Below, piece after piece: positions 5,480 through 33,731 of a stretch of 64,000 nt of DNA. A program made the translations under genes and the position numbers. Position 1 is the stretch's first letter; every line of letters starts with the position of its first letter. This DNA comes from Alkaliphilus pronyensis (GTDB taxonomy: Bacteria > Bacillota > Clostridia > Peptostreptococcales > Natronincolaceae), in NCBI RefSeq assembly GCF_009017275.1, contig NZ_WBZC01000004.1, positions 1 through 64,000 of the forward strand. Direction: 5' to 3'. The notes beneath the pieces were generated by a model, which had not been told where the DNA came from, did no database searches, and saw only the letters and a program-made list of their open reading frames with translations.

Positions 5480-6394
5480 CTACCCCCTATTCCTTGTTAC
5501 AAAGGCATCAACTGGCTTCCTTTTAGCCGATTCAAGAACAGGCGATCGTTTCACTACCTCAACTAATGAATCTGTATCAGATTTCATAGTAATTAATGCC
5601 ATTACTACATTACCATTCTCAGGATTTCTTCTTGCAATAGGTGTAAAATCTGGCTCGTCTAAGTCCTTACGAATACCCAATTGTGTAGCAGCATTATGTT
5701 GTATAGACTGTCTTTGTCCTATATTAGCCAATATTGTTACTGCATATGGGTTTTTAGGTATAATTTCCACAGCTATTCCTGATTCTAAAAAGATTTTTCT
5801 TGAATCCTTAAGTCCTATATTCATAACTGGTACACCTGCTACAGTTAGTAAAGGTCCATCAAAGGTTATTTTTGCTGCCTTCACATGGGCAATATCTTCT
5901 ATTGCCCTACCCTTTAGCATATTAGATAAAGCTAAGTATAATGCAGTTCCAAATATTACACCAAGCAAAATCTGTGTAATCCAATGGAATTTAAAATGTA
6001 CTCCAAAATAAACTCCTATAGAACTAATTAAGGATGTTAGGATAGCAATATAGTTTCTTGCTTCAAAGGCTTTAGCTATATCTTCAATATAAGCTGTTCC
6101 TCTTGGAACTAGCTCAGTTACCTCAATGTTATCAAGGCTTTGTCTTTCCATATTTCTCACATCTCTAAACTGCTGTGCTGCTAAAGCTAAAAAGGTTACA
6201 GCTACAAATTCTTTTTCTATTATTGAAGGTAATGCCACAGCTCCAAGGGCCGAGGCAATAATACCAAGGGTAAAGTGGGATAAATAGGCTTGTGGATAAG
6301 TGGGATATTGCCTGTAATCCACCTTCATCATTAAAACTCTTGCCAATGTTCCCATAATTAATGAAGTTACAATTAATGTTAGATACTTATCCAT
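5480..6394 (-). CDS. YIEGIA family membrane protein
   Basis: A 304-residue protein with hydrophobic segments near residues 4-22, 42-58, 62-75, 115-132 and 138-160, then a soluble C-terminal domain. The eponymous motif appears as YIEDIA at residues 102-107, with D in place of the usual G. It is encoded between spoIIP and its small partner in an apparent operon. Family presence tracks with sporulation, but a molecular role is not established. Identification rests on motif, topology and neighbours. Confidence 0.87.
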   Translation of the reverse strand: MDKYLTLIVTSLIMGTLARVLMMKVDYRQYPTYPQAYLSHFTLGIIASALGAVALPSIIEKEFVAVTFLALAAQQFRDVRNMERQSLDNIEVTELVPRGTAYIEDIAKAFEARNYIAILTSLISSIGVYFGVHFKFHWITQILLGVIFGTALYLALSNMLKGRAIEDIAHVKAAKITFDGPLLTVAGVPVMNIGLKDSRKIFLESGIAVEIIPKNPYAVTILANIGQRQSIQHNAATQLGIRKDLDEPDFTPIARRNPENGNVVMALITMKSDTDSLVEVVKRSPVLESAKRKPVDAFVTRNRG

Positions 6395-11356: not shown

Positions 11357-11632
11357 TTAAAGCAAGTAATTATTTTCCTCATTGGCTTGTTCTATAGTTC
11401 TAATTTCATATGATTTATATCCCAGTGCAATGAATGGGTCAGCCTCTGCAATTTCTATAGCTTCAATTTTATCTTCTGCTAGAAAAATAACCATACCACC
11501 TGGATAATCCGTAAAGGGTCCACAAAGCACAAGCTTATCCTGGGAATCTAAATCCTTTAAATACTCTACGTGACTATTTATAACTTCATTGTTTAATAGC
11601 TTTAGATTCTTCATTAAGTATACAAATGTCAT
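11357..11632 (-). CDS. YciI family protein
   Basis: A 91-residue small ferredoxin-like alpha/beta protein. Family hallmarks are H21 in NSHVEYLKDLDSQDKL, the GPFTDYPGGMVIF segment (about 39-51), and AEADPFIALGYKSYEIR (about 64-80), in which the conserved D faces the presumed active site. Catalytic functions in this family vary. It stands alone, with the hairpin repeat just downstream. Confidence 0.88.
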   Translation of the reverse strand: MTFVYLMKNLKLLNNEVINSHVEYLKDLDSQDKLVLCGPFTDYPGGMVIFLAEDKIEAIEIAEADPFIALGYKSYEIRTIEQANEENNYLL

Positions 11633-26062: not shown

Positions 26063-27007
26063 TTAGTCTTGAATAGGTGTATCACGTTTTATAATTTTAC
26101 CACCAAGACCTTCTATAATTCCATGAATATTATCATATCCTCTATCTATATGCTTAATATTCTCAATTATGGTTTCTCCCTCTGCTGCAAGGGCAGCTAA
26201 TATTAAAGCAGCTCCACCTCTGAGGTCTTTTGCAGTAACCTTAGCACCAGTTAACCTCTTTACCCCTTTAATAAGTGCTATACGTCCATTAACCTTTATA
26301 TTAGCCCCCATTCTTGTAAGCTCTTCAGCATGCTTAAATCTGTTTTCAAAAATTGTTTCAACAAATATACTTATTCCATCTGCAACACTCATCAATGCCA
26401 TCATTTGAGACTGCATATCTGTTGGAAAGCCTGGATAAGGTAAGGTTTTAAGGGAATCTATAGAAATTAGCTTATCTGGTGCCTCTAAAGAAATAGCTCT
26501 GTTTTTAACATCAACTCTACAGCCGCTTTCCCTGAGCTTATATATAACAGATTGCAGATGCTCAGGTATTACATTGGTTAATTCTATTTTACCCCCTGTG
26601 ATGGCGGCAGCAACTAAGTATGTACCTGCCACTATCCTGTCTGGAATAATTCCATGCTCAACATCATGTAGTTTTTCTACACCTTCGATTGTAACTGTTG
26701 CAGTACCTGCTCCCTTTACCTTACCACCCATTCTGTTGATAAATCGCTCTAAATCAATTATTTCAGGCTCTTTTGCAGCATTTCTAATTATTGTTGTTCC
26801 CTTTGCAAATACAGCAGATAATATAATGTTTTCAGTTGCTCCAACGCTAGGAAAATCCAATTGTATTTCTGCACCCTTTAGCTCTTTTGCTTCACATATT
26901 AAAAATCCATGCTTCTCCTCTATATTGGCACCTAATTCTCTTAAGGACCTAAGATGTAAATCTATTGGTCTCGGTCCAATCTCACATCCACCTGGTTGTG
27001 ATAACAT
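26063..27007 (-). pseudogene. murA: murA 3' part (split by element)
   Basis: Encodes UDP-N-acetylglucosamine 1-carboxyvinyltransferase from the catalytic cysteine onward. The 314-codon frame reads MLSQPGGCEIGPRPIDLHLRSL and then tracks the rest of MurA (GRIALIKGVKRL, YPGFPTDMQSQ, ENIKHIDRGYD). The first seven codons come from the element; native murA begins at about 26995. An internal ATG (27007) has a weak AAAGG site, so a C-terminal fragment could be made, but it lacks the first 115 residues and cannot be a normal enzyme. With the 5' part it rebuilds a 422-residue MurA (family about 419). Confidence 0.93.
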
Positions 27008-28560
27008 ATTGAACCTTTAAATGACCAGTGAACTGTAGCTTCAATGTATGAATCTGTTGCGAAGGTCTGTTTTATCATTATTCTATCTATTAACGCTTCT
27101 ATATCATCTCTACATATTTCCAAGCTATTGATTTTGTTCTCCAAAAACATAGGATCCTTCATTTCATCTTCTATTTGCTGTCTGTTATTCTTTTTTTCAT
27201 GTAAGCTCTCTAGTGTTGCCTCCATTATATTAATGTCATTATAGCCTTCCCTTACAAGTTCCTGGTAGATATCATGTTTTAGCTGATTCCTAGCCCATAG
27301 CTTTATATAGTTTTTTATTTCAATTTTTTTACTATCTATATTAAAACAAAGTTTATTGATTCTTTCCTCCAAGTTAGAGGTTGCTTTTTTTAAGCTAATT
27401 ATTTTGCTAATGATGTTCTGTTGATTAATATTTCCACCTAAAAGTAGGCTTTTAATCTCTTTATTTAATGCCTCTTTCAAATTATCCTGAAGGATAAAAT
27501 GTGTAGTACATGCTTTTTTTCCATATTTGTGGTACTGTCCACAATAATATGCAATAGAATTATTTTTTCTTTTTCTTGCAATCATATAGCTACCACATTC
27601 ATTACAGTATAAAAAGCCTGAAAAAAGATTTATACCTGAATTACCACCTCTTATAAGTCTCTTGTTTCTTCTATAATTAACTTCCATAGCCAGTTTAAAC
27701 TCATTTTTTGATATTATTGAAGGATGATGATTTTCATGAACTATTTGTTTTTCTTCCTCCACCCTATAGGATGCACCTTTTATGGTTTTCTTCATTGTTT
27801 TACCACATCTTAATACACCTATATAAATATCGTTATTAATAATTCTTTGAACATGTACATTACTCCATTTCCCAGAGGTTTTGAACTTCCCCCCTTTTTT
27901 CTTTTTTAAATATTGGGAGGGTGTTGGAATTTCCAATGTGTTTAATTTTTCGGCGATTTTCCTATACCCTAAGCCATTTATGTATAGCTTAAATATTTTT
28001 TTTACAATCTCTGCCGCCTCATCATCAATAATCAACCTATGCTTATTGTTGGGGTCTTTAATGTAGCCATATTGACTTTTAACAACTAAGCCTTCATTTT
28101 TTTGCTTGCTTCTTATGTTTTCTGTTATTTTTCTACTTATATCTTTGATGTACATTTCATTATACCAGGTACGAATACCAAGTATATCATCACTATCTCG
28201 GTAACTATCATAGCCTTCTGTAGCTAAAATCAATCTGATATTTCTTTCCTTTAATAGCTCAAAAAAAAGCAGTGTTTTCGCATTATGCCTCCCTACTCTT
28301 GAACTATCCTTTGTAATTAGTACGTCAACCTCACCCTGCTGTATTTTTTCAGTTAACCTATTTAATGCTGGTCTTTCAAAGATATAACCTGATACATTAT
28401 CATCTTCATATATGGCAAGTACACTATAGCCTAGCTCCTTAGCTCTTTCCATTATTATATTTTTCTGTTGTAGTATTGAACTATAGTTTTCTTTATCCTC
28501 ATCTCTGGATAATCTAACATAGCCATATACCCTCAACCTTATCACCCACCATAGGGACAT
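26962..28560 (-). CDS. Large serine recombinase of the murA element
   Basis: A 532-residue site-specific integrase. N-terminal resolvase domain with the nucleophile in YVRLSRDED (Ser18) and DVLITKDSSRVGRH; a recombinase domain (GYGYIKDPNN..., YRKIAEKLNTLEIPTPSQYL); a zinc ribbon around residue 318-355 (CNECG, YYCGQ, CTTHF); and a coiled coil at about 390-450. Starts ATG behind AAAGGAGG. The reading frame crosses the attachment repeat: its last nine residues (DVRLDRDQ region) are encoded by murA DNA. In a circular form the frame would instead end GSITY-stop. It resembles the SpoIVCA/skin family and phage integrases in layout. Confidence 0.93.
   Translation of the reverse strand: MSLWWVIRLRVYGYVRLSRDEDKENYSSILQQKNIIMERAKELGYSVLAIYEDDNVSGYIFERPALNRLTEKIQQGEVDVLITKDSSRVGRHNAKTLLFFELLKERNIRLILATEGYDSYRDSDDILGIRTWYNEMYIKDISRKITENIRSKQKNEGLVVKSQYGYIKDPNNKHRLIIDDEAAEIVKKIFKLYINGLGYRKIAEKLNTLEIPTPSQYLKKKKGGKFKTSGKWSNVHVQRIINNDIYIGVLRCGKTMKKTIKGASYRVEEEKQIVHENHHPSIISKNEFKLAMEVNYRRNKRLIRGGNSGINLFSGFLYCNECGSYMIARKRKNNSIAYYCGQYHKYGKKACTTHFILQDNLKEALNKEIKSLLLGGNINQQNIISKIISLKKATSNLEERINKLCFNIDSKKIEIKNYIKLWARNQLKHDIYQELVREGYNDINIMEATLESLHEKKNNRQQIEDEMKDPMFLENKINSLEICRDDIEALIDRIMIKQTFATDSYIEATVHWSFKGSICYHNQVDVRLDRDQ
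26988..26995. repeat. Left attachment repeat CCACCTGG
   Basis: Shared with 33388-33395. In the murA sense it is CCAGGTGG, the codons for part of PGG. The outer, restored site would be ATCCA-GG-TGGAT, a perfect inverted repeat around GG, which is the form expected of a serine-integrase attB with a central GG crossover dinucleotide (inference). Confidence 0.88.
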
Positions 28561-28570
28561 TAAGCCTCCT

Positions 28571-28699
28571 TTACTCCTTTAATAGCTTCTTTATCAGCAA
28601 TTCCTCCAATAGCTTTTGCATATCTTTTTTACCTGAGTAATCATGCTTAATTATGAGCTTATTTTTATTGCTTTTCCCATAAGCTTTTTCACTTTTCAA
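28571..28699 (-). CDS. 42-residue basic peptide just upstream of the recombinase
   Basis: Begins TTG at 28699 behind AGGAGGTG and reads MKSEKAYGKSNKNKLIIKHD, then ends LLIKKLLKE. Its stop is about 10 bp before the recombinase ATG and they share the AAAGGAGG site region, so it is likely co-translated. It has eleven lysines and no recognised domain. Small proteins beside serine integrases are sometimes recombination-directionality factors; that is only a hypothesis here. Confidence 0.65.
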   Translation of the reverse strand: MKSEKAYGKSNKNKLIIKHDYSGKKDMQKLLEELLIKKLLKE

Positions 28700-28831: not shown

Positions 28832-30658
28832 TTATATCTCCAGCAGTCTTTTACCTTCTTCCTCAATGAACTGATTTGTATAAAGCCTATAATAATATCC
28901 TCTCATTTTAATTAATTGCTGATGGTTACCAGATTCAATGATTTCTCCTTTTTTAATAACCAATATCCTATCGGCTGAGCGAATAGTCGATAGTCTATGG
29001 GCAATAATGAAGCTGGTTCTTCCTTTTAGTATTTTACTAATTGCTTTTTGTATCATCTGCTCTGTTTCTGTGTCAATTGAAGATGTGGCTTCATCTAGTA
29101 CAAAAATCTTAGGATTAGCTAATACTGCCCTTGCAAAGGATATTAATTGCTTTTCGCCAGATGATAGCAAGCCACCGCCTTCGCCTACCTGGGAGTCATA
29201 GCCCTTTTCTAGCTTCATAATAAAATCATGGGCATTTACTAGCTTTGCTGCTCTAATTATCTCCATTTCACTTGCATCTAACCTTCCATATCTAATGTTT
29301 TCCTTAATAGTTCCACTAAATAGATGGGGGCTTTGTAAAACATACCCTAAGTTAGATTGTAGCCATAATTGAGATCTTTCCCTATAGTCTACCTTATCAA
29401 CAAATATTTTTCCCTTTGTTGGCTCATAAAATCGACATGCAAGATTTACTATTGTGCTCTTGCCAGAGCCTGTTTCTCCTACAAGAGCGATAGTTTCTCC
29501 TGCCTTAACCTCTAAATTAAAATTCTCTAAAATTGGTTCTTCTGGGTTATAGCTAAAGGATACATTCTCAAAGACTATATCGCCCTTTATAGTATCCCAA
29601 TTTTCTTTTACAGGTGTAAATGAATCACCGTATTGCTTTATAACTAAAGCTGAATCTTTTATTTCTGGCTCAGTATTAATCATAGACATTACCCGTTCTG
29701 CCGATGCATGGGCCGACTGAATTTCTGCAAATACCCTTGCAAGCTCTCTAATGGGTTCAAAAAACTGTATTGTATAGGAAATAAATGCAACAAGAGTTCC
29801 ATAGGTTATACCCATCCTTGCTACCTCAATTCCTCCAAACCAAAGAGCCAAGGCTGTTCCAATGCTTCCAAAGGTTAATACTATAGGCAAAAATAAAGAG
29901 GAAAATATAGCAGCCCTTATAGATGCAGCCCTCATGCCTTTTGTAATATCAGTGAACTCCTCTAGGTTTTTTTCTTCCCTTACTAGAACTTTTGTAGTTT
30001 TAGCACCTGTTATTCCTTCATTAAAGGCACCGGTTATTCTGGAGTTGATTTTTCTGACACTTCTATACTCCTTCAATATCTTTTTTTGGAAATACAGGCT
30101 AGTAAATATTAGTATTGGTATTACTGATAGAGATATTAATGCAAGCTTCCAATCTAAAAACAGCATAACCACAATTATAGCAGCCATTTTAGTAAAGCCC
30201 CAAAAAATATCAACCATACCCCATGAAATTATTTCACCAAGCCTAGTTATGTCAGATGTCATTCTAGCCATTAACCAGCCGACTGCCTTATTATCATAAT
30301 ATGATAAGGAAAGCTCCTGTAATCTCTTAAAGCCTTTTTTTCTTATATCATATGTTAGGTTAGTTTCAATTTTTCCTGCTATAGAGATAAAAAACCAAAT
30401 ATTACTTGATAGCATAACCACCATAGCTGCATATAGGAGAATAAACTTTGGAACCTCTGATATTTTCCCCTTATAAATGAACTCATCTATGGCATATAAA
30501 GTCATTAGTGGAAAAGCTGCTTCTATTACTGCCACCAACACCATTGATATAATTAACAAAGCTACCGATTTTTTCATTGGATAGGTGAACTTAAATATTT
30601 CCCACCATAGCTTAAAGTCAAACCTTTCGTTATAATCCTGCTCCTGCAATTTCATCAT
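28832..30658 (-). CDS. ABC multidrug exporter half 2 (canonical NBD, BmrD-like)
   Basis: A 608-residue fused TMD-NBD half-transporter (six TM segments in about 1-320). The NBD has Walker A GETGSGKST (about 389), Q-loop YVLQSPHLF, signature LSSGEKQL (about 498), Walker B VLDEATSSID with the catalytic Glu (about 518), and the H-loop IAHRLSTIRS. The complete catalytic site complements its degenerate partner. It is 38 bp downstream of half 1. This pairing is the rule in heterodimeric exporters such as BmrCD/LmrCD. Confidence 0.9.
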   Translation of the reverse strand: MMKLQEQDYNERFDFKLWWEIFKFTYPMKKSVALLIISMVLVAVIEAAFPLMTLYAIDEFIYKGKISEVPKFILLYAAMVVMLSSNIWFFISIAGKIETNLTYDIRKKGFKRLQELSLSYYDNKAVGWLMARMTSDITRLGEIISWGMVDIFWGFTKMAAIIVVMLFLDWKLALISLSVIPILIFTSLYFQKKILKEYRSVRKINSRITGAFNEGITGAKTTKVLVREEKNLEEFTDITKGMRAASIRAAIFSSLFLPIVLTFGSIGTALALWFGGIEVARMGITYGTLVAFISYTIQFFEPIRELARVFAEIQSAHASAERVMSMINTEPEIKDSALVIKQYGDSFTPVKENWDTIKGDIVFENVSFSYNPEEPILENFNLEVKAGETIALVGETGSGKSTIVNLACRFYEPTKGKIFVDKVDYRERSQLWLQSNLGYVLQSPHLFSGTIKENIRYGRLDASEMEIIRAAKLVNAHDFIMKLEKGYDSQVGEGGGLLSSGEKQLISFARAVLANPKIFVLDEATSSIDTETEQMIQKAISKILKGRTSFIIAHRLSTIRSADRILVIKKGEIIESGNHQQLIKMRGYYYRLYTNQFIEEEGKRLLEI

Positions 30659-30696: not shown

Positions 30697-32496
30697 CTAG
30701 CTTGATTTTTCTAAAATATTACTCTCTAAATTTTGTAGCTTCCAAATTCTATTATATAAGCCATTATTACTTATAAGCTCATTGTGATTGCCTATTTCAA
30801 CGATTCTACCCTTTTCAAGCACCAAAATAATATCCGCCTCAGAAATAGTAGCTATTCTATGGGAAATAATAAAGGTTGTAGCTTTATTTCTCCTTTTTTT
30901 TAAGGCACTTCGTATTGCTGCATCAGTTTCGGTATCAACTGCACTTAAGGAGTCGTCGAACACTATAATAGGACAATTGATAATCAATGATCTAGAGATG
31001 GCAAGCCTTTGTTTTTGTCCTCCTGAAAGGGATACCCCCCTCTCTCCTACCAATGTTTCATAACCCTTGTCAAAGTCTAATACTACATCATGTATTGCTG
31101 CCACCTTTGCTACATTAAATACCTCTTCATCCTCAGCTTCCACCCTACCTAATTTAATGTTATCCTTTATTGTTCTTGCAAATAGAAAGGGTTCTTGTAG
31201 TATCAGTCCTACATTTTTTCTAATCCATTTTTTATCTATTTCCTTTAGCTCTATTCCATCTATTTTAATTGAACCTTTTTGATAGTCAAAAAGTCTTGCT
31301 AATAAATGAACTAAGGTGGTTTTACCTGCCCCAGTTGGACCAAGTATTGCTACTGTTTTACCTTCCTTTACATCAAAGCTAATATCATTTAAAACTGGTT
31401 TTCCCTTCTCATATTCAAAGGTTACATTTTTAAAGGATATATTACCTTTAATCTTCGGATTTTCTCCCTTCTCCTCCATTTTTTCCTTTTTCTCTGCTAG
31501 TATTTCTCCTATTCTGTCTAGTGAAACCATTGCCTTACCTAAGTCTGTAATAACTCTTCCCAATTGCCTTATTGGCCATAGCAGCATTCCAACATAGGTA
31601 TTAAAAACAACCATTGTGCCTAGAGTTATTCTACCTGTATATGTCCAATACACACTGGTGGTTAGCACTATACCCATTTGAATCATGCTTAGTAGGTCTG
31701 ATACAGACCAGTACCAAGCAAACAAACGTATTAATTTGTAGGTTAAATCTCTATTAACAATATTTTTTTCATCAAATTTATCTACTTCATAGGCCTGTCG
31801 TCCAAAAGCTCTAACAACCCTTAAGCCAGTTAAGTTTTCTTGAAGTGTTGATGACATTTTACCCTCTGCCTCTTCCATTAGCTTAAATGCCTCCTTAACC
31901 TTAACAAAGAAAACAACTGTGAAGACAAAAATAACAGGTATTAATGACATTGATATTATTGTTAAGGTAGCATCCATAGGCACCATAATGTATATAGTAA
32001 ATAACAGCATAAATAATGCGCTTCCTATTTCAATGGACTGAGTTGCTAAAAACCTTCTTATAATTTCTACGTCTGAAGTACACCGTTGAATTAAATCACC
32101 TGTTTCTGCCTTTACATGATAATCATAGGAAAGGTACTGAAGATGATCATATACCTGATCTCTGATGGTTTTCGCAACAGCCTCTGCTGCTTCTGCAGAC
32201 CATTTTCCCTTAAAGTATAAAAAAATTCCTCTAATAATCGCAAAGGCAACTATTATTATTGCTGGTATCCACAACTTATCCTTTAGAGCTTCTACTCCCC
32301 CTATGCTAACAATAACATCTTGTATCACCTTAGGTGCTTGAAGTTCTTTATCTCCAATTACAGAGTCTATTGTTGTTTTGATAATTAATGGTGCTGCCAA
32401 GCTAAACAATGTGGCTAAGCCAATACTAATCAATGCACCAAAGTAACGACTTCTATTACCCTTTAAATAATTCCATAACTGTTTTATATTCTTCAA
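30697..32496 (-). CDS. ABC multidrug exporter half 1 (degenerate Walker B, BmrC-like)
   Basis: A 599-residue TMD-NBD half-transporter with TMD residues about 1-320. The NBD has Walker A GPTGAGKTT (about 384), signature LSGGQKQR (about 487) and Walker B IVFDDSLSAVD (about 510), in which the catalytic Glu is replaced by Asp. The H-loop ISHRIATISEAD is present. This asymmetry, together with the intact downstream partner, indicates a heterodimeric exporter with one non-hydrolysing site. It is preceded by a leader peptide and two hairpins. Confidence 0.9.
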   Translation of the reverse strand: MKNIKQLWNYLKGNRSRYFGALISIGLATLFSLAAPLIIKTTIDSVIGDKELQAPKVIQDVIVSIGGVEALKDKLWIPAIIIVAFAIIRGIFLYFKGKWSAEAAEAVAKTIRDQVYDHLQYLSYDYHVKAETGDLIQRCTSDVEIIRRFLATQSIEIGSALFMLLFTIYIMVPMDATLTIISMSLIPVIFVFTVVFFVKVKEAFKLMEEAEGKMSSTLQENLTGLRVVRAFGRQAYEVDKFDEKNIVNRDLTYKLIRLFAWYWSVSDLLSMIQMGIVLTTSVYWTYTGRITLGTMVVFNTYVGMLLWPIRQLGRVITDLGKAMVSLDRIGEILAEKKEKMEEKGENPKIKGNISFKNVTFEYEKGKPVLNDISFDVKEGKTVAILGPTGAGKTTLVHLLARLFDYQKGSIKIDGIELKEIDKKWIRKNVGLILQEPFLFARTIKDNIKLGRVEAEDEEVFNVAKVAAIHDVVLDFDKGYETLVGERGVSLSGGQKQRLAISRSLIINCPIIVFDDSLSAVDTETDAAIRSALKKRRNKATTFIISHRIATISEADIILVLEKGRIVEIGNHNELISNNGLYNRIWKLQNLESNILEKSS

Positions 32497-32689: not shown

Positions 32690-32830
32690 TTAGTAAAGAT
32701 GATTTCTTTCCTTAATTAACAGGTTATTTAATTTTGGACATACTTCACCCTTGTTAAAGCCAAAAATTGGAGAAATTACTGGTAAAACTATTCTTCTATT
32801 GTCACTGTTAACTAAAGTATTGATAATCAT
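32690..32830 (-). CDS. 46-residue leader peptide of the ABC exporter operon
   Basis: Begins ATG at 32830 with an excellent AGGAGGTG ribosome site 5-6 nt upstream and about 35 nt after a predicted transcription start. The peptide opens MIINTLVNSDNRRIVLPVIS and contains FGFNKGEVCP. It has no known domain and no TM segment. Two terminator hairpins follow before the ABC genes, as in bmrB-bmrCD of B. subtilis, where translation of a leader peptide controls termination. Similarity to BmrB in sequence is not claimed. Confidence 0.75.
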   Translation of the reverse strand: MIINTLVNSDNRRIVLPVISPIFGFNKGEVCPKLNNLLIKERNHLY

Positions 32831-33143: not shown

Positions 33144-33199
33144 CCATTTTCCATTTTCCATTTTCAACTTGGTTTTGTGTTTTTAATTTTTATTATTTA

Positions 33200-33355
33200 T
33201 GGTTTTTCACTTATTACCTATTCCTTATTACTTATTCCCTATTCCTTATTCCTTATTCCTTATTCCCTATTCCTTATTACTTATTACTTATTACTTATTA
33301 CTTATTCCCTATTCCTTATTCCCTATTCCTTATTACTTATTACTTATTCCTTGCC
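33200..33355. repeat. TTATTCC/TTATTAC heptamer repeats
   Basis: About twenty 7-bp units (TTATTCC, CTATTCC, TTATTAC) in tandem. A frame of 82 codons across them is an artefact of the 21-bp double period and is not annotated. The same units occur near 18.03-18.08 kb outside the element. Confidence 0.7.
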
Positions 33356-33383
33356 TTTAAGGTTCAACATTCAATATGTAATA

Positions 33384-33731
33384 CTACCCACCTGGATAGC
33401 TAATTTTAACTTTTCCATATCTTGATAGCATTGCTCCTAGGAAAATAATAGATGAACGCATCTCTCTTACAAGGCCTTCTGGAACCTCATAGTTGTTCAA
33501 TCCCTTTGAATCAACCACCAGCGCATTGTTTTCCCTTCTTACTTTACATCCTACTGACCTTAATATTTTTGTCATAGTGATTACATCAGATAATCTTGGA
33601 ATATCATGAACTACATTCATTCCACCATTTAGTATTGTTGCTGCTAAAATAGGAAGTACAGAATTTTTTGCTCCGCTCACCTTTACTTCCCCAACTAATT
33701 TATTTCCTCCAAGGATTTCGTACCTACTCAC
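33384..33731 (-). pseudogene. murA: murA 5' part (split by element)
   Basis: Residues 1-115 of MurA: a GTG start behind GGAGGTGACC, then SRYEILGGNKLVGEVKVSGA, and the conserved GAKNSVLPILAA substrate segment (about 20-31). It ends PGG and then reads straight into a stop codon provided by the element. The catalytic cysteine and all of the remaining enzyme lie 6.4 kb away. In the intact gene this would follow murG in the dcw operon. A second murA elsewhere in the genome is plausible, since many Firmicutes have two, but cannot be seen here. Confidence 0.93.
33388..33395. repeat. Right attachment repeat CCACCTGG
   Basis: Second copy of the 8-bp repeat; the flanking outer sequence encodes KISY of MurA. 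The two copies are 6,400 bp apart. Confidence 0.88.

Follow-up and report, generated by a model that had tools for sequence, protein, structure and literature searches.

Among the closest described systems to the locus reported here are the gene-intervening elements gin in gerE of Bacillus cereus ATCC10987, skin, vfbin, vrin, and SPbeta in spsM. Among these, gin is described as a non-phage serine-recombinase element that is excised during sporulation with the participation of GirC and GirX (PMC5595907). In two further systems, integration acts on the gene that carries attP: in mycobacteriophage BPs, attP is reported to lie in the repressor gene, from which integration removes a C-terminal degradation tag (PMC4557955), and archaeal suicidal integrases are reported to disrupt their own gene on integration (PMC8371274). 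The titles and opening lines of abstracts listed from the open-licence literature contained neither a murA attB nor a serine integrase with an integration-dependent tail; in the portions of text available, the string murA occurred in PMC8637289 only within 'muramidase' and in PMC4191935 only in author names.

The window analyzed here is a stretch of 64,000 nucleotides from Alkaliphilus pronyensis (assembly GCF_009017275.1, 3.06 Mb in 94 contigs). In the division (dcw) cluster of this window, murA is interrupted by a 6.4-kb element within the codons for Pro-Gly-Gly-Cys, immediately 5' of the catalytic Cys codon. We take the gene order on the minus strand to run from mraZ to murE, murF, mraY, murD, ftsW, murG, murA, divIB, two DUF881 genes, sbp, ftsZ, spoIIGA, sigE, and sigG, most of these names being assigned from order and sequence, and the cysteine to be the catalytic residue, Cys115 in E. 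coli numbering. Between the murA halves lie two ABC exporter subunits, a 46-amino-acid (aa) open reading frame (ORF), a 42-aa ORF, and a large serine recombinase. The features are as follows.

26063..26992, minus strand: murA 3' part, beginning at the Gly-Gly-Cys of the catalytic loop (GGCEIGPRPIDLHL...)
26962..28560, minus strand: large serine recombinase of 532 aa when integrated, with Resolvase, Recombinase, and Zn_ribbon_recom domains; the frame crosses the attL core
26988..26995, minus strand: attL core CCAGGTGG, with the predicted crossover GG at 26991-26992
26993..27013, minus strand: attP left arm TTCAATATGTTATCACAACCA, which doubles as the 3' coding end of the recombinase
28571..28699, minus strand: 42-aa ORF with a TTG start, lying immediately upstream of the recombinase gene and a candidate for its companion or directionality factor
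28832..30658, minus strand: ABC exporter subunit (cargo), with orthologues elsewhere on the chromosome in G001, G002, G004, and G006
30697..32496, minus strand: ABC exporter subunit (cargo), from a domain scan
33370..33390, minus strand: attP right arm TGGGTAGTATTACATATTGAA, from the sequence
33384..33731, minus strand: murA 5' part, 115 aa, ending in KISYPGG and a stop (coding to 33387, stop codon reaching 33384)
33388..33395, minus strand: attR core CCAGGTGG, with the predicted crossover GG at 33391-33392

The two parts of murA cover positions 3-116 and 111-415 of the NCBIfam MurA model, and their fusion in silico gave a 422-aa MurA with no stops, the exchange falling in the first Gly codon of Pro-Gly-Gly-Cys. 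At the level of sequence, the split host gene could thus be restored exactly by excision. By analogy, the murA element is similar to skin, gin, and other intervening elements: it is a non-phage or phage-remnant element with a recombinase, a short shared core, and exact rejoining, the last read here from the sequence. It differs from them in its target, murA not being a known sporulation gene, and regulated excision is hypothetical here. Two further MurA-like genes are present in the window genome (contigs C12 and C69; 56% and 53% identity to the C part of the cluster murA), so that an inactive cluster copy should be tolerable.

In order to locate the attachment sites, ten elements with both junctions readable were compared: that of the window genome (G000) and those of G007, G008, G051, G098, G107, G470, G583, G688, and G764. 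In the window, CCAGGTGG occurs at both ends of the element and a third time outside it, at 11496. A count of three in 64 kb is not in itself very unusual (mean, 0.67; three or more in 5 of 100 shuffles); the pair at 26988 and 33388 is real because murA is split exactly there. Modelling of attP, attL, and attR from these positions, a check proposed in the first-pass annotation, gave a consistent answer, GG being the best of 18 dyad centres tried in all ten elements. About this centre, 16 of 21 positions are paired in the window attP and the next best centre pairs 8; the narrowest margin was found in G098, with 13 pairs versus 11. Furthermore, the attL and attR copies of G008, G098, and G764 are identical up to GG and diverge at the next base, which would put the exchange at GG or within the short shared stretch ahead of it. 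The predicted crossover is GG, which would fit a serine integrase with a central dinucleotide, and from the same junctions we infer a circular form of the element.

The recombinase combines a Resolvase N-terminal domain, a Recombinase domain, and a zinc ribbon carrying a long coiled coil with a dyad attP. By its sequence it is an ordinary large serine recombinase, and attP x attB catalysis is predicted. The closest recombinase in a named record is that of Alkaliphilus peptidifermentans DSM 18978 (65%). Sequence profiles place the SPbeta integrase YokA closest among solved relatives, and its chains also lead the fold search. With the SPbeta integrase (YokA/SprA) the window enzyme shares the catalytic, recombinase, zinc-ribbon, and coiled-coil parts, a dyad attP with a central dinucleotide, and a target inside a protein gene; however, it is 17-18% identical to the solved chains, a match of fold, its target is another one, and no phage gene was recognised in the window element. 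Among the tblastn matches listed there were no close phage, plasmid, or viral-contig relatives: phage matches were 28-35% identical (19 of 19 records), plasmid matches 28-35% (best 20 of 31), and one viral contig 37%. Assignment as a CcrA, CcrB, CcrC, or XisF equivalog was rejected, all scores lying below the NCBIfam cut-offs (CcrA, 72/700 bits; CcrB, 109/900; CcrC, 71/900; XisF, 87/375).

The first-pass annotation had held that the recombinase frame crosses its own attachment site, so that the C terminus alters on integration. This is correct: ORF 26962-28560 passes on the minus strand through the attL core and ends in CYHNQVDVRLDRDQ before its stop codon. Translation and in-silico joining also reproduced both of the tails given there, VDVRLDRDQ in the integrated form and VGSITY in the circle, the conceptual C termini being QVDVRLDRDQ and HNQVGSITY, respectively. 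One refinement is that the V (GTG) is still shared sequence and the residues that differ are DVRLDRDQ versus GSITY. Relative to the first G of the crossover dinucleotide, the stop codon starts at +28 nt in the integrated form and at +19 nt in the circle.

In the ten elements, the recombinase stop always lies within -27 to +49 nt of the crossover, and the frame crosses in seven (G008, +49; G000, G007, and G470, +28; G107, +20; G764, +13; G051, +8; G098, -14; G583, -25; G688, -27). Crossing occurs in two recombinase types, 28-29% identical to each other. The enzymes of G098, G583, and G688, at the same murA target, terminate 14-27 nt ahead of the crossover and consequently have no tail switch. 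Past the core, the integrated tails (e.g., VDVRLDRDQ, VDVKLDLDR, GDVKLDQGPLIYTLDP, REAANLVPDL, and RGDVN) track the murA sequence. The circular tails (e.g., VGSITY, VDSNTY, VDGITHGKRVEVKVIGNRE, REGMIT, and RVDMTA) reach from about 5 to about 40 residues past the crossover and are mutually unlike beyond the first few residues, which are set by the attP arm. In G051 and G107 the circular tail exceeds the integrated one by 39 and 27 codons, a larger change than in the window. A conserved tail peptide was rejected, as neither sequence nor length is conserved among the seven crossing elements.

Since the integrated and circular tails do differ, the two forms of the enzyme could differ in stability, partner binding, or direction, and the element might in this way sense its integration state. 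The BPs repressor offers a precedent (PMC4557955), in that attP likewise lies within a reading frame, which here crosses attP as well, and the C terminus is changed by integration. In contrast to the integrase considered here, the BPs protein is a repressor, reported as a proven case in which 33 residues bearing a degradation tag are lost; the window enzyme exchanges a few unconserved residues, and the switch is not kept among its relatives, 3/10 being without it. A second comparison is provided by the archaeal suicidal tyrosine integrases (SSV1, pTN3, and pT26-2), which as described also have attP inside the integrase gene (PMC8371274). There the gene is cut in two, whereas in the window the conserved domains are all upstream of the site: all invariant columns precede the core, which falls in a tail predicted to be disordered. 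Judged by its sequence, the window recombinase would be a mild version of an integration-dependent C terminus.

The predicted structure of the recombinase is of low overall confidence (pTM 0.41) and was used for a local statement on the C terminus alone. The last predicted strand comprises residues 506-512 and ends 20 residues from the C terminus; residues 515-532 have a pLDDT below 50, with a mean of 27-28 over residues 521-532. To examine how often the frame is open, the last 36 nt were compared across frames: the recombinase frame was stop-free through the core in 7/10 elements and the other two frames in 7/20 (one-sided Fisher P value, 0.077; for the first nine elements alone, 6/9 versus 6/18, P value, 0.11), values that are indicative only, the sequences being few and related. 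This amounts to a weak excess of the open recombinase frame over chance. We know of no resemblance of either window tail end to the known small hydrophobic degradation tags. The suggestion of the first-pass annotation that the tail change could alter activity or directionality is thus unsupported and unlikely, the tail being unconserved and predicted to be disordered and three of ten relatives having no switch. Crossing in seven elements and in two recombinase types may nevertheless point to some advantage, and we consider a functional switch improbable.

The reading that we favor, and hold to be quite likely, is that a large serine recombinase element sits in the dcw murA with attP at the 3' end of its recombinase gene and that the tail change is a non-specific by-product. 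According to this reading, attP occupies the extreme 3' end of the gene, and its left arm therefore encodes the end of the recombinase as well. No stop stands ahead of the predicted GG in this lineage, and the frame continues past the crossover, in the integrated form into murA, out of the murA frame, and in the circle into the right attP arm. The 5-8 residues altered would form an unstructured tail, most likely without a specific role, and the simplest account of the ten elements would be a stop codon drifting to either side of an attP that adjoins the recombinase 3' end. The recombinase alone probably integrates the circle at attB in murA; excision, which would give murA back exactly, probably needs a small partner protein, perhaps the 42-aa product encoded upstream. 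Neither Pfam nor PHROG matched this ORF at E<=0.01. Short ORFs lie upstream of the recombinase in 12/12 loci inspected, and also in G764, and their sequences differ; the small upstream protein is accordingly named here as a candidate directionality factor. A compact recombinase-attP layout can thus make the last residues of an integrase depend on its location, which is a small caution when the C termini of integrases are annotated or when integrated copies serve as the source for cloning a serine integrase.

The repeated splitting of the dcw murA at one codon is a larger result than the tail change and is a lead worth following. Serine-recombinase elements interrupt this one codon in 12 genomes, which belong to three clostridial families. 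For the family of the window, open-frame lengths indicated an unbroken cluster murA in 16/20 genomes, with its parts contiguous between murG and divIB when the loci were read, and a split one in G000, in G007, which is placed in the genus of the window, and in G008; no cluster copy was found in G014, which is 83% complete. Recombinase searches led to G098 and then to G470, G519, G583, and G688, all split at this codon. A survey with the murA N part found 4/16 genomes of family f11 to be split (G098, G088, G051, and G107, which are the four g38 genomes searched), 11 to be unbroken, and G111 to be at a contig end. In family f31, 5/22 were split (G470, G519, G583, G688, and G764) and 14 unbroken, G657 was at a contig end, and G765 and G766 gave no match to the N part.

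All ten elements that could be read across both junctions allow the murA halves to be fused in frame and stop-free. Nine of these give a MurA of 416-422 aa, and G764 gives 389 aa from a contig edge at which its N part begins, at about codon 32; G764 was left out of the trees and dN/dS tables. Set aside were G088, where the contig ends inside the element before the C half, G111 and G657, with short open frames at contig ends, and G519, in which attL and about 35 murA codons are lost (L103, approximately 5947-5961; an assembly error is possible). With its recombinase-murA junction deleted, the murA of G519 is not restorable by excision.

Between carriers, the dN/dS of the joined murA was 0.04-0.10, with 0.15 for G000-G098, where dS was finite; dS is near saturation in most pairs and saturated for G470-G583. 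Three pairs of intact genes gave 0.053-0.055. The murA branch lengths of G000, G007, and G008 (0.11-0.23) are within the range of the others. Coding is clearly kept in the carriers, and by these sequence comparisons there may be mild relaxation.

To distinguish one insertion from many, host and recombinase trees were compared. The g1 and g5 carriers G000, G007, and G008 group together with support of 100 in the host tree, which was built from twelve proteins of the neighbourhood, murA excluded, three of the twelve not being seen in G008; their recombinases likewise make up a single clade (support, 99). The ABC pair is inside the element in these three genomes, and an orthologue is elsewhere in G001, G002, G004, and G006. 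Both clades and the common cargo therefore favor one insertion before the g1/g5 split. Against a single insertion, the ABC tree groups G008 with non-carriers, with weak support (65). Outside g1 and g5, the sequences indicate clear turnover of recombinases at the murA site. Within g38, the recombinase of G098 is of the window type and those of G051 and G107 are 32-33% identical to it, with murA N parts 96% identical between G098 and G107. Between G470 and G519 the recombinases are 67% identical and the murA parts 96% and 90%; between G583 and G688, the values are 54%, 83%, and 82%. Vertical descent and repeated insertion probably both operate, part of the recurrence being due to a hot attB that receives elements repeatedly.

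Another reading is that of a programmed element like skin: the insertion would silence murA, and a controlled excision, e.g., in the sporulating mother cell, would reconstitute the gene. Such a programme is a property of the element rather than of the tail and is compatible with the by-product reading. It would account for a single codon being split in 12 genomes of three families, for in-frame rejoining in every readable case, for the low dN/dS of carrier genes (0.04-0.15 where dS is finite), and for the fully supported clade of g1 and g5 carriers. Moreover, the minimal elements of family f31 contain little beyond a regulator, a small ORF, and the recombinase, the murA cluster ends in spoIIGA-sigE-sigG, and skin, SPbeta, and gin are described as precedents (PMC5595907; PMC4191935). 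However, no convincing sporulation promoter precedes the recombinase operon: searches for sporulation sigma promoters there gave pattern matches only, none of them conserved. A motif of the form TTAATAGGACA-N18-YTTAAT/TATAAT is common to G000, G007, and G008 by eye, and a loose version of this motif matches the minus strand of the window at three places, the site before the recombinase operon among them. The deletion in G519 indicates a dispensable gene, and some relaxation in carriers is possible when set against the intact pairs (0.053-0.055). In genus g38 the site is occupied by two or more unrelated recombinases, which fits repeated insertion, and the recombinases of G470 and G519 have diverged (67%) far beyond their murA parts (96% and 90%). 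We regard a programmed element as a real but tentative possibility.

It is a real possibility, though less likely than not, that the Pro-Gly-Gly-Cys codons of the dcw murA are a conserved switch in several clostridial lineages, the gene being off vegetatively and rebuilt at a defined stage, and that different genera have recruited unrelated recombinases to this codon. The attB, which lies within a peptidoglycan gene whose cluster also holds sporulation genes, is in any case used repeatedly, and both halves still code. If excision is regulated, programmed gene reconstitution would extend from sporulation genes to cell-wall precursor synthesis.

A further alternative is that the split murA acts as two separate polypeptides. 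An in-frame start just before the core is present in 4/10 elements (ATG in G000, preceded by AAAGG, and in G051 and G107; GTG in G583). In the other six (G007, G008, G098, G470, G688, and G764), there is no in-frame ATG, GTG, or TTG between the upstream stop and the core, and the cut falls in the catalytic loop, making two working polypeptides highly improbable.

Several further features of these elements were observed. In the window, the 46-aa ORF (32690-32830, minus strand) is conserved in L006 (from approximately 2211) and has no Pfam match; it is followed by the inverted repeat CCTAGGTAAGGGGATGCTTACCTAGG, and the two are possibly a leader peptide and terminator ahead of the ABC operon. Between attR and this operon (33170-33355) lie degenerate short repeats of the type aataagtaataagg, with like runs upstream of the G007 and G008 recombinases. 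The G007 element carries extra cargo (L006, 6559-8561), a PfkB-type kinase and a PF04227 gene, presumably of the pseudouridine-5'-phosphate glycosidase type, neither of which is in the window element; in G008, a PF04227-like gene (L026, 9546-10481) appears similar to that of G007 by eye.

The murA element of G764 in family f31 (L163, 772-4793) is minimal, like those of G470 and G688, consisting of a regulator, a 77-aa ORF, and the recombinase. At the same codon, the elements of G051 (L158, 1452-9882) and G107 (L159, 7368-18955) have recombinases 28-29% identical to that of the window. By eye, DNA-methylase-like and transposase-like genes are present in the G051 element and phage-like genes in those of G107 and G088, the latter with an endolysin by profile match. 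Finally, G004 and G006 (L027, 8382-9977; L028, 7400-8995) contain recombinases 44-45% identical to that of the window, which end near a truncated frame that looks Cu/Zn superoxide dismutase-like by eye and is likely a second target of the same subfamily.
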